From Flavobacterium frigidimaris (GTDB lineage: Bacteria; Bacteroidota; Bacteroidia; Flavobacteriales; Flavobacteriaceae), in NCBI GenBank assembly GCA_900129595.1, contig FQWG01000003.1:1-64000 (forward strand): a stretch of DNA of 64,000 nucleotides, written 5' to 3'. Of this stretch, positions 58,498 through 61,829 are shown piece by piece (the first letter of the stretch is position 1; each line of letters begins with the position of its first letter). The notes beneath the pieces are model-generated. The model ran no database searches and was not told where the DNA came from. It worked only from the letters and a program-made list of their open reading frames with translations. A program made the position numbers and the translations under genes.

Positions 58498-58575
58498 GAA
58501 TCGTTTAATTGTTCGACCGTTGAACCGGTAAACAAAAAAACAATTAACCGATGAAACAAATCAACGATTAAACAA
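58498..58575. repeat. Imperfect repeat with GTTTAAT and AACGATTAAAC words
   Basis: AATCGTTTAATTGTT on the left is partly mirrored by AACGATTAAACAAT on the right, and ACCGGT-like words flank the middle. It lies between the methyltransferase and the ZIP gene. It is another word-built intergenic repeat. Confidence 0.45.
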
Positions 58576-58582
58576 TAAAAAG

Positions 58583-59251
58583 ATGAATTATCTATTACCC
58601 TTATTTTCTGTACTTTTAGGTTATATAGTGGCTTTGTTTTTAAAACCAAAAAACAAAACCAATCTAAAACTATTGCTTGCTTTTAGCGGTTCATTTTTGC
58701 TGTCATTAACCGTAATGCATTTGTTGCCGGACGTTTATGAAACACACAATCATAATATAGGTATTTTTATTATGGTCGGAATTTTATTTCAGATCATATT
58801 AGAATTTTTCTCAAAAGGAGCTGAGCACGGGCACGTTCACGGGCATGCCCAAATGAGTCAGATTCCGTGGCTGCTTTTTATAAGTTTGTGTATTCACGCT
58901 TTTCTAGAAGGATTTCCGGTAAGCCACCATCATGATTTAGCACTCGGAATAGCCATTCATCACTTGCCAATTGCCGTAATTTTGACTACTTTTTTCATCA
59001 ACGCCAACCTGAACAAAAAAGCTATTTTTGCTTTTATGCTTACTTTTGCTGTTATGACACCGCTTGGCACAGTTGCGTCTGAATACTTACCTTTTCTAAA
59101 CGATTATTATACTGAAATCACCGCGATTGTAATCGGGATTTTATTTCATATTTCATCAACCATTATTTTCGAAAGCAGCGAAGGACATAAATTCAATGTC
59201 GCCAAAGTTTCTATGATTATATTGGGTATTATATTGGCCTTTTTGTTATAA
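58583..59251 (+). CDS. ZIP-family metal transporter
   Basis: The 222-residue protein has about eight helices. HGHVHGHAQ is the His-rich loop, and HAFLEGFPVSHHHDLALGIA plus HHLPIAVIL are the metal sites in the fourth and fifth helices. ZIP proteins bring Zn or other divalent metals into the cytoplasm. No metal regulator is adjacent. Confidence 0.88.
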   Translation: MNYLLPLFSVLLGYIVALFLKPKNKTNLKLLLAFSGSFLLSLTVMHLLPDVYETHNHNIGIFIMVGILFQIILEFFSKGAEHGHVHGHAQMSQIPWLLFISLCIHAFLEGFPVSHHHDLALGIAIHHLPIAVILTTFFINANLNKKAIFAFMLTFAVMTPLGTVASEYLPFLNDYYTEITAIVIGILFHISSTIIFESSEGHKFNVAKVSMIILGIILAFLL

Positions 59252-59252
59252 T

Positions 59253-59367
59253 CAGGGCGTGACCATATTTACAAAAGGCGCTGTTTAGCAAACCGTTTAT
59301 ATGCGCCTTTCGCAAATCCGGTCGGGCTATACGCACTACTTCGGTAGTGAGCTCCTATCCCTCACGC
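59253..59367. repeat. Structured dispersed repeat with UUCG hairpin
   Basis: The element has inverted ends, GCGTGA (59257-59262) and TCACGC (59362-59367). An internal 8-bp hairpin, AAAGGCGC (59274-59281) with GCGCCTTT (59303-59310), is followed by CCGGTCGGGCTAT and the tetraloop hairpin CACTAC-TTCG-GTAGTG (59334-59349). From memory, similar repeats with CGGTCGGGCTAT and CTATCCCTCACGC lie between genes in many Flavobacteria. It holds no ORF, and the role is unknown. Confidence 0.7.
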
Positions 59368-59444
59368 AAAAATAAGAACTAATCTTTTTCAAAAAAACAC
59401 CCACCAGATTTCAAAAACCCGTTAGATATTCCTATTCCTTCTAA

Positions 59445-61829
59445 TTATCTCGCTCTGTTTTTCTCATCTTCATTTCCAAAATCACGTTGACTAACATTAA
59501 TCTTTTTATTTCCAAAATTATAAACAACAGACAAACGGGCAAATCGGTTACTTTCATTTTGGTTATAAACTTGTTTTACACCATTTACAATCGAGACATC
59601 ATTTTTGAGATAAGATGTATTAAAAATATCATTTACCAAAACAGCAATCTGCAATGTTTTGTTAAGCAAATCCTGTTTAAAACCAATATTTAAACTTGAA
59701 GTATATCCTGTTTCATATAAACCGCTTTTGTAAGGCGAAGTATAGTTAAAATCTACCTGCAGTTTAGTTGCCTTGCCCAACGAAAAAGTATTATTTGTCG
59801 AAAAATTGATTTCAAGACTATTTGCCGGTATTGCATTGATATCTTTTGTAAATTTTATATCAGATCCTAAAAAATACAATGAGTTCTCACTCTGCCACCA
59901 ATCGGCAAAATTAGCTGAATACGTTTCACCAACTCCATAATTGATCCCTTTAAAATAATTCTCTCTCGATACAATTTGCGTCATTCTTTCCGGATTCGCA
60001 GTAAAAATCACACCATAGCCATCTGTAATTGCATTGACAAAAACACTGCTTCTCCATATTTTCTTATACGAATGCGAAAATTCAAAATTATCACTAAAAG
60101 AAGGCTTCAAAAACGGATTTCCTTCTGAATAACTATTACTACTGATATAAACACGAAACGGATTCAATAAAGAAAAACTCGGCCTTTGGATTCTTCTTCC
60201 GTAGTTCAAACTAAAATTATTATTTTCATTTCTATTATAAGATGCATAAAAAGTTGGAAATAATTTAAGGTAGTTGTTTATCGTTTCCTGATTCAGATTT
60301 TCCGAAAAACCATTTGTTTGTGTATTCTCTAATCGCAATCCAGCCTGCAAATTCCATTTTTCATTGATTTTTTTATCTGCACTAATATAAAACGCCTGAT
60401 TATTTTCGGTATATCTAAATTGATTCGTCTGATTCATCTCTAAAACCGGAATTCCGGTAATGGTATTAAAAAAAATAACATCGCTTTTACTTTTTGTAAA
60501 ACTCACTTTTGCTCCATACGATAAGTTGAGTGCTTGAAGCGGATGTTCCATATCAGCCTTGAAACTCAAATTATCAATACCCTGATTTGAAATATTTCTT
60601 CCGGATTGGTTGACCTCGACAAAGGTTCCGTCTGACAAATAATTGTTTGCAGTAAAATTTCTGTCGAATTTTGAATTATAATCAAAATAATCAACGTCGA
60701 ATGATAATTTTCGATTGAGAGAATCAATTTTGGTAATCAAATGCAAATTATAAGTCTGATTACCCGATTTCCTGTCTAAAAAACTCTCATTGATAATATA
60801 ACTCTCTAATTGATTCTTAGAATTATATTTATTGATTCTGATATCCGAGTCAAAATCAGGATTGCTTTTATCTTTCAGGAGCTGAAAACCAATGGTTGTT
60901 CTTTCAGAAAGATCATAATCCAGAGCTACTTTTCCGGAAAAGTTTTCCTCATTCAGTTTTGTTATAACATCCATTTTCGAAAGCCCTTCTATAAAATACA
61001 TATCCAGACCTTCCTTAATATTTTTAGCACCTGCTTTTCCATTAATACTGGCCGAAAACCTAAACTTATTTTTATTATAAAAGAAATTATTCCTTACAGC
61101 ATAAATTCCGTATTTATTTTGATCATAAGATGCCGTACTTGTATTTTTCCAGGAATTACGAGCCCCTTTTTTCATTATAATATTAATCAGTCCGCCTGTT
61201 CCTTCGGCTTCAAACTTTGAAGAAGGATTACTTATAATTTCGATGTTTTTAATATCACTTGCCGAAATAGATTTCAGGAACTCATTTAATTCTTCAGCCG
61301 TTAGCTCAATCATTCTTCCATCAATCATCACACGAGAAGTTCCTTTTCCTAATATAGTTATAGCATTGTTTTGCACTACAACTCCCGGCGCTGTATTGAT
61401 AGCGCTCAAAGCATCTCCGCCAACGTTAGTAACATTATTTTCAAGATTATATACCACACGATCTATTTTTTGTTCGATCGTATTTTTTCTGGACTGAATG
61501 ACAACTTCTCCCAAATTCGTTACATTTTCCTTTACGACAATCAACCCCAAATCAATGTTTTTTTCTATTGTGATTACTTTATCAAATTCAGCATATCCCT
61601 GAAGGCTAATTTTTACTTTATAAAATCCTTTATTCAAAATCAGTTCAAAACTGCCATCTTCTTTTGTTGTTGCTCCGTTTATAATTTTACCCTCCTGATT
61701 TAAGATTACAACATCCGTCCATGCTAATGGTATTTTTTCATCGGCAACTTTTCCGTTTAATTTAAAGGATGCTTGTGCTAAACAAAAAAGAGGTAATAAT
61801 AAAAAGATAAAGAGGTTCAGTTTTTTCAT
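59445..61829 (-). CDS. TonB-dependent outer membrane beta-barrel receptor
   Basis: The 794-residue protein has a signal peptide (MKKLNLFIFLLLPLFCLAQ), a carboxypeptidase-regulatory-like domain (FKLNGKVADEKIPLAW, DGSFELILNKGFYKVKISL), a plug with GTSRVMIDGRMIELT and GGLINIIMKKG, and a C-terminal beta-barrel with many aromatic strands. The layout is that of the outer membrane family that relies on TonB. The ligand is not evident, and no SusD partner is present, so it probably imports a small molecule or acts in sensing. Confidence 0.9.
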   Translation of the reverse strand: MKKLNLFIFLLLPLFCLAQASFKLNGKVADEKIPLAWTDVVILNQEGKIINGATTKEDGSFELILNKGFYKVKISLQGYAEFDKVITIEKNIDLGLIVVKENVTNLGEVVIQSRKNTIEQKIDRVVYNLENNVTNVGGDALSAINTAPGVVVQNNAITILGKGTSRVMIDGRMIELTAEELNEFLKSISASDIKNIEIISNPSSKFEAEGTGGLINIIMKKGARNSWKNTSTASYDQNKYGIYAVRNNFFYNKNKFRFSASINGKAGAKNIKEGLDMYFIEGLSKMDVITKLNEENFSGKVALDYDLSERTTIGFQLLKDKSNPDFDSDIRINKYNSKNQLESYIINESFLDRKSGNQTYNLHLITKIDSLNRKLSFDVDYFDYNSKFDRNFTANNYLSDGTFVEVNQSGRNISNQGIDNLSFKADMEHPLQALNLSYGAKVSFTKSKSDVIFFNTITGIPVLEMNQTNQFRYTENNQAFYISADKKINEKWNLQAGLRLENTQTNGFSENLNQETINNYLKLFPTFYASYNRNENNNFSLNYGRRIQRPSFSLLNPFRVYISSNSYSEGNPFLKPSFSDNFEFSHSYKKIWRSSVFVNAITDGYGVIFTANPERMTQIVSRENYFKGINYGVGETYSANFADWWQSENSLYFLGSDIKFTKDINAIPANSLEINFSTNNTFSLGKATKLQVDFNYTSPYKSGLYETGYTSSLNIGFKQDLLNKTLQIAVLVNDIFNTSYLKNDVSIVNGVKQVYNQNESNRFARLSVVYNFGNKKINVSQRDFGNEDEKNRAR

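Follow-up and report, generated by a model that had tools for sequence, protein, structure and literature searches.

What is the small repeat that lies directly behind a ZIP metal-transporter gene of Flavobacterium frigidimaris, which of its strands takes up the fold, and what moves it or keeps it in place? The window analyzed here is a stretch of 64,000 nucleotides (contig FQWG01000003.1, positions 1 to 64,000 of the forward strand), for which a first-pass annotation, made from the letters alone, had proposed a dispersed structured repeat at 59253-59367 with nested hairpins and a UUCG loop, possibly moved in trans.

The element at the window locus and its copies

The element is a folded DNA repeat of 113 nt that occupies 59255-59367 of the window; the right end given in the first-pass annotation holds, and its left end lies two bases too far out. 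The window copy does have what was picked out at that stage, namely inverted ends (GCGTG/CACGC), a pair of inner hairpins and the sequence words CGGTCGGGCTAT and CTATCCCTCACGC, and no reading frame of at least 60 aa in the ORF list overlaps the element, in keeping with its description as free of an ORF. Of 200 shuffles, a single one folds at least as well as 59240-59380 (z -2.56). The features are as follows, in window coordinates.

58583-59251, + strand: upstream gene, ZIP metal-transporter family (PF02535, 52.2 bits); stop codon 3 nt before the element
59251-59254, + strand: flanking tetranucleotide ATCA (consensus A-T-Y-W), conserved in 43 context representatives; its first base doubles as the final base of the ZIP-gene stop codon
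59255-59367, - strand: whole element, predicted three-way junction (match of 117.2 bits to the R1 covariance model, whose training set includes this copy; covariation; fold)
59257-59261, + strand: P1 left strand, GCGTG, pairing with 59363-59367 (double changes in 3 of 5 pairs; other P1 sequences in phage relatives)
59262-59281, + strand: P2 left arm of a long variable hairpin (double changes in 16 of 20 P2 pairs)
59303-59322, + strand: P2 right arm (the same 16 of 20 P2 pairs)
59324-59326, + strand: P3 base GGG, pairing with CCC at 59359-59361 (double changes in 2 of 3 pairs)
59327-59330, + strand: first CTAT (minus strand ATAG) of the ATAG/ATAG motif; inner U-A and A-U pairs from RNAalifold without a supplied structure
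59335-59348, + strand: P3 terminal hairpin; loop 59340-59343, TTCG on the plus strand and CGAA on the folding strand
59355-59358, + strand: second CTAT (minus strand ATAG), partner of the first; the A-U pair covaries in 27 Flavo-1 copies
59359-59361, + strand: P3 base CCC, pairing with GGG at 59324-59326
59363-59367, + strand: P1 right strand, CACGC, pairing with 59257-59261
59445-61829, - strand: downstream convergent gene, outer-membrane beta-barrel/TonB-dependent receptor-like (PF14905, 315 bits)

Further copies in the same genome, which the first-pass annotation had expected, exist: in its 5.74 Mb, BLAST picks up 6 matches and R1 picks up 16, nine of them at 71 bits or more, with the window copy among these strong nine. 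Across 40 genomes, our own included, BLAST gives a match in 10, and an R1 match at E ≤ 0.001 occurs in 238 of 299 Flavobacterium genomes, weak short-arm matches counted; this genus scan scored 12 candidates per genome, so its copy numbers are lower bounds. A scan of named genomes yielded at least 119 stretches, and the matches listed all carry the title Flavobacterium except for one [Flexibacter] and one Flavobacteriaceae record. A literature search with five sequence words of the element returned unrelated papers only. These comparisons support a dispersed, structured, noncoding and apparently REP-like repeat with relatives across Flavobacterium, in line with the earlier suspicion of a REP-like element whose ends resemble repeats of other Flavobacteria.

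The fold and the strand that forms it

In a first alignment of 32 copies, drawn from the 44 BLAST matches listed and with ends placed by pattern, double changes fall in 22 of 28 pairs and 95.2% of cells are paired, and none of 500 shuffles reaches the observed value on any measure. To cut shared ancestry, 123 copies (these 32, the 88 top R1 matches and 3 more) were then reduced to 43 genomic contexts defined by neighboring proteins. With one copy per context, taken as its minus strand, and a structure that was partly drawn by eye from the same sequences, double changes occur in 27 of 37 pairs, 92.1% of cells are paired, and again none of 500 shuffles is as high on any measure. Paired changes in the stems, on which the first-pass annotation had staked its own reading, are abundant in both sets. 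From the 43 representatives RNAalifold, given no structure, returns 31 pairs and the same three-way junction, in which P1 is the closing stem, P2 a long arm with almost no constraint on its letters, and P3 a succession of GGG/CCC, ATAG/ATAG and a hairpin. The inner U-A and A-U of ATAG/ATAG are paired, with G·A on either side. The predicted three-armed fold is kept while its letters change.

The long arm is also the part that varies most freely. Identity within P2 is 0.72-0.75 in three of the four largest context groups and 0.88 in the fourth, compared with 0.86-0.92 for the 3' 47 nt, and identical P2 classes were seen by eye at different loci. Because P2 is more divergent than the 3' 47 nt and its classes recur across loci, we infer that arms have been exchanged between copies.

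The minus strand is shown, at the level of sequence comparison and predicted stability, to be the folding strand. It is the more stable one in 111 of the 123 copies with RNA parameters and in 119 of 123 with DNA parameters, and in the four copies printed the full junction appears as the minimum-energy RNA fold on this strand only. When the 43 representatives are read as minus strand, G-U outnumbers A-C by 66 to 22; counted per sequence, 27 representatives favor G-U, 3 favor A-C and 13 are ties, and counted per column the G-U excess of 13 versus 7 is not significant. Read on the plus strand, mismatches are A-C rather than G-T (22 versus 6 in alignment A1; 34 versus 7 in alignment A2, which holds the top-scoring R1 matches with one of 89 rows dropped), and by context the A-C lean is found in 19 of 41 groups, with the opposite in 3 and ties in 19. 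The strand tests favor the minus strand also in contexts abutting stop codons, and Rfam Flavo-1 matches lie on the same strand as the folding strand of the element. Since it is the minus strand that folds, TTCG is not a UUCG tetraloop there but reads C(CGAA)G, and the UUCG loop of the first-pass annotation is not supported as a feature of the folding strand.

Kinship with Flavo-1 and evidence on mobility

Judged by its shared core, the element belongs with Rfam Flavo-1 (RF01705) as a long-arm relative, one that the Rfam model overlooks. The RF01705 model has no match in the window at its gathering score of 42 bits, and none at the element in locus L001 at E ≤ 0.001. Relatives with a short P2 score 64.7 bits (L008, in the same genome), 57.3 (L050) and 52.1 (L052), with a fourth, L049, under the gathering score at 36.4 bits. 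The common core is ATAG/ATAG closed by a GC-rich stem on the same strand; the closing stem and P3, the folding strand and dispersal in the same genomes are likewise held in common, whereas the P2 of the element, at about 60 nt, and its short P3 set it apart. With at most 123 candidates scored per genome, Flavo-1 has 99 matches in the F. frigidimaris genome, 64 in G057 and 0-111 across 24 relatives. Across 27 Flavo-1 copies from a single genome (30 loci minus three near-duplicates), the second inner pair of ATAG/ATAG is A-U in 18, C-G in 4, G-C in 4 and U-A in 1; three of five covariation measures over these copies beat all 500 shuffles, and the measures that count pairs or pair types are not above shuffles (184 and 499 of 500).

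A table in PMC2864571, from 2010, has Flavo-1 among its candidate or probable RNAs. According to the passages on F. psychrophilum in PMC9723704, its matches are sense or antisense alike and many lie outside transcribed regions, and neither the passages on Flavo-1 there nor those in PMC9029176 assign it a function. At 30 classical Flavo-1 loci of one genome (L269-L298), we counted 14 copies sense to both neighbors and 3 antisense, some copies being 16-25 nt upstream of a reading frame. Flavo-1 copies in G057 are partly paired about 6 kb apart, and between the members of one such pair (L516, G057:C1:495000-501500) lie tRNA-Ala and tRNA-Ile, an arrangement like that of an rRNA operon.

Among known mobile sequences, REP and BIME elements with their RAYT (TnpA-REP) are also intergenic and dispersed, with a strand-specific fold and a conserved tetranucleotide at one foot. 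The element differs from them in being three-armed and 113 nt long, compared with the REP hairpin of 21-65 nt described in PMC6006769, in having ATYW as its one-sided motif and no GT[AG]G foot at a short hairpin (consensus checked), and in having no linked RAYT. With the ends of IS200/IS605 elements it shares a short one-sided motif, the lack of an exact target duplication and single-strand folds, traits of that family given partly in PMC6006769 and partly general background; unlike those elements it has no internal transposase gene, paired ends or observed excision.

The one-sidedness is clear from the 43 representatives. In the left flank, position -4 is A in 35, -3 is T in 40, -2 is T or C in 41 and -1 is T or A in 39; the right flank is conserved only as a purine at +1 (40 of 43), and no strong motif was found there in the 43 contexts. 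Exact target duplications of at least 3 nt are absent from all 43. If up to 4 nt of slack is allowed, 3-nt flank matches occur in 21 of 43, compared with 14.1 in shuffles (3 of 300 shuffles as high), and a degenerate target duplication at the flanks is possible.

We compared occupancy in two genomes that are about 90% identical, G129 and G260, which carry 10 and 7 long copies, respectively, at a threshold of at least 100 bits. All seven G260 copies have a flank-matched partner in G129, one of them on one side only, and three remain G129-only; stretches of the two genomes examined earlier had been chosen around three copies known as common, so that sharing there is no test. Flavo-1-type sites, found by pattern in about 570 kb and scored by reading, gave six scorable cases, two common and four in a single genome, with one more undetermined. 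Compared with these (2 of 6 shared), the long copies look steadier in position (7 of 10), numbers that are too small for proof. At the first G129-only site (L519), the G260 counterpart resembles, by eye, a decayed P3 half. The same gene end in the F. frigidimaris genome carries the element in opposite orientation (L044/L559), reflecting either independent arrivals or an inversion. The second G129-only copy is present in the F. frigidimaris genome (L046) and is absent from G260 and G090 along with neighboring sequence. The gene end of L045 has an element in 8 of 18 loci scanned with R1 and none in 10, the homology of distant loci being uncertain, and no clean junction was seen by eye in 16 of the 18. 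More generally, no clean empty site was found, also with the flanks of two F. frigidimaris copies searched in 20 genomes, and at sites without an element in relatives the neighboring sequence differs too. L045 itself (C30:375613-375726 of the F. frigidimaris genome) has its P1 end apparently interrupted by a repeat with inverted ends AATGTCATTAAGTTAAG and with AGCTCTATCCC on both sides, which is probably a second small mobile element.

The partner transposase that the first-pass annotation had suggested looking for did not turn up. F. frigidimaris has four IS200-like Y1 genes and one degenerate, and neither R1 nor the Rfam model finds an element or Flavo-1 copy within 1.5 kb of these five. At 32 Y1/IS200-like loci (these 5 and 27 from relatives), R1 gives one clear match about 0.8 kb off (L165) and one weak match; a Flavo-1 scan of 25 Y1 loci (the 5 and 20 of the 27) gives one match about 1.3 kb off (L174), and the density of both near Y1 genes is near the chance density as estimated. 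We therefore rejected a RAYT/IS200 partner, as copies are not enriched around Y1 genes and RAYT-type genes carry different palindromes, for example GATAGCGCGGATTTGCAATCCGTGCC at subclass 2.6-like RAYT genes of relatives, a class assigned by motifs given in PMC6006769. A dependence of copy number on the presence of Y1 genes was also dropped, there being by eye no relation among 25 genomes; G004 has no Y1 match yet 101 Flavo-1 matches. Three subclass 2.6-like RAYT genes (L164, L166 and L179) are flanked by short palindromes of their own, which at L164 and L166 begin GATAGCGCGGATTTG; the GATAG start is common with Flavo-1, the fold is not.

Gene ends, phage terminase genes and the competing readings

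The gene pairs around the 43 representatives are ++ in 14, +- in 12, -- in 11 and -+ in 5, with one undetermined, compared with 12, 9, 14 and 10 in the same order for the 45 intergenic gaps of the window; the low number of divergent contexts is no more than a hint. As the tandem contexts are balanced (14 versus 11), the element has no general orientation to genes. An apparent bias toward the sense of the upstream gene (99 of 120 copies) was due to a few conserved loci and vanished in the 43 contexts, where the close abutment remained: a gene 3' end lies within 20 nt of the left end of the element in 8 of 27 contexts, compared with 0 of 23 at the right end (Fisher p = 0.005), where the distance to genes is at least 41 nt in context medians. 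Behind the ZIP gene, the spacing from stop codon to element is 3 nt in 11 of 11 copies; in other context groups it varies from 0 to 161 nt in the rows seen. Many copies are kept in the same gene context across species; the four largest groups hold 21, 16, 15 and 11 copies, with no genome contributing twice to a group. At these four loci identity is 0.79-0.89 in the element, 0.61-0.81 in the left flank and 0.52-0.56 in the right flank, with 0.49 for unrelated right flanks; in the ZIP group the left flank is mostly coding and is conserved to the same degree as the element. No replication-strand bias was seen in the 58 matches of one complete chromosome (16/16/14/12, with the origin assumed near coordinate 0).

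Relatives of the element also occur in phages. When viral contigs were scanned by pattern, 10 stretches came up, of which 7 lie next to a single gene family (four recognized by ORFs, three by contig identity with the list of viral relatives), and R1 confirms 8 of the 9 viral loci tested, at 37-54 bits. The four viral proteins, with 24-36% identity to the first one, have no convincing Pfam or PHROG match; relatives from phages of Bacteroides, Porphyromonas and Microcystis carry the annotation terminase, and those from phages of Flavobacterium, Cellulophaga and Polaribacter are entered as hypothetical. In a sample made up of the best 80 of 95 viral relatives and 7 named records (87 loci, 425 kb, R1 at E ≤ 1), there are 16 matches, of which 15 sit 0-120 nt past the gene on the gene's strand and 1 elsewhere. 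One of the 15 is weak (L431, E 0.02), and after removal of repeats they represent 12 lineages; none of the 7 named phages has an R1 match. The contigs that carry the element are from uncultivated phages, and to call these Bacteroidetes phages would be inference. The phage loci are as follows.

L429, L431, L433, L460, L461, L464, L471, L490, L492, L499, L500, L502: phage loci with short- or long-arm relatives 0-120 nt past the terminase large-subunit gene, on the strand of that gene

Their P1 is GCGTT/AACGC, GCATT/AATGC, GCGAT/ATCGC, GTGTT/AACAC, GCGTG/CACGC or GGGAA/TTCCC, and such varied yet paired ends further support the P1 stem. Downstream of the terminase gene, TCATATTTCC ... GGAAATTTCC turns up repeatedly (L437, L464 and further terminase loci), whether or not an element is there, and could be a packaging or end site; the by-eye pass took in 71 of the 80 loci.

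The explanation that we prefer, though only tentatively, is that the element is a REP-like, non-autonomous relative of Flavo-1 whose working form would be folded single-stranded DNA of the minus strand, a three-way junction with a symmetric ATAG/ATAG in P3. The strand evidence, the weak dependence on transcription and the one-sided flank together favor such a REP-type element. Copies would have spread in trans through an enzyme that cuts single-stranded DNA, with ATYW, known as a sequence pattern, perhaps marking the entry point; they would now be inherited mostly in place, with arm exchange and some decay, and would be tolerated or of use chiefly close to the 3' ends of genes, where a stop codon can directly adjoin the left end. 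Support for this reading was lowered when further absences again came without a clean empty site. The inverted ends and dispersed copies would also fit a MITE, a miniature transposon served by a DDE transposase and bounded by short terminal inverted repeats, but the lack of exact duplications of at least 3 nt among the 43 representatives, a 5-bp terminal stem that changes freely while its pairing is kept, and flank conservation on one side only make this highly improbable. Transcription of the minus strand as a small structured RNA family, as the Rfam entry type (sRNA gene) has it, would account for a strand that folds as a unit and tolerates G-U pairs, and the distance of the right end from genes leaves room for a promoter; the table of PMC2864571, as noted, lists Flavo-1 as a probable RNA. 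We regard it as quite unlikely, because the sigma-A box TANNTTTG, the only promoter type scanned, is not enriched upstream of the folding strand (2 of 43 versus a shuffled mean of 2.75), the right flank has no strong motif, the F. psychrophilum transcription data as presented in PMC9723704 have no consistent sense, and the same fold statistics fit single-stranded DNA. Balanced tandem contexts, the lack of box enrichment and the F. psychrophilum pattern, as far as those passages go, point to DNA rather than RNA.

A role tied to the upstream gene has to be taken more seriously, if still as a doubtful alternative: the element would act at gene 3' ends on the upstream transcript, as terminator, RNA stabilizer or processing site, and be kept by selection, its mobility being old or incidental. 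The polarity at stop codons and behind terminase genes favors such a role, and this one-sided abutment, with the strict terminase orientation, suggests something that plain insertion does not predict. The constant 3-nt spacing behind the ZIP gene in 11 genomes, the conservation of elements above that of their right flanks at four loci and, by eye, the composition of some P2 classes as A-tract, GC stem and T-tract fit as well. However, the upstream gene reads the plus strand, whereas the strand tests favor the minus strand even in stop-abutting contexts; a scan of the window copy for intrinsic terminators (GC stem plus T-rich tail) found 0 sites in 58500-60200; a separate terminator-like hairpin stands ahead of the element at L519 (by eye); and the tandem orientations are balanced over contexts. 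The single-stranded-DNA, 3'-end and minus-strand-RNA readings are not fully exclusive.

What the data add is the fold of a long-arm branch missed by the Rfam model, a testable core motif (ATAG/ATAG), evidence for a folding strand opposite to the one that abutting genes read, and a link with phage terminase genes that was not expected and is fixed in orientation. The packaging RNA of phage phi29 is likewise a three-way junction tied to phage packaging genes, a resemblance to the element in shape and in the packaging-gene link only. It is a bold and on balance unlikely idea that one three-way-junction cassette serves bacterial genes and phage terminase genes alike from their 3' ends, with fixed polarity, and that a protein of host or phage recognizes its folded single strand there, be it in packaging, transcript ending or mobility. 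If true, Flavo-1 and its long-arm relatives would be a common host-phage nucleic-acid signal and not an sRNA family. The features described here offer experimental handles on Flavo-1, an old annotation with up to 111 matches per genome in our sample.
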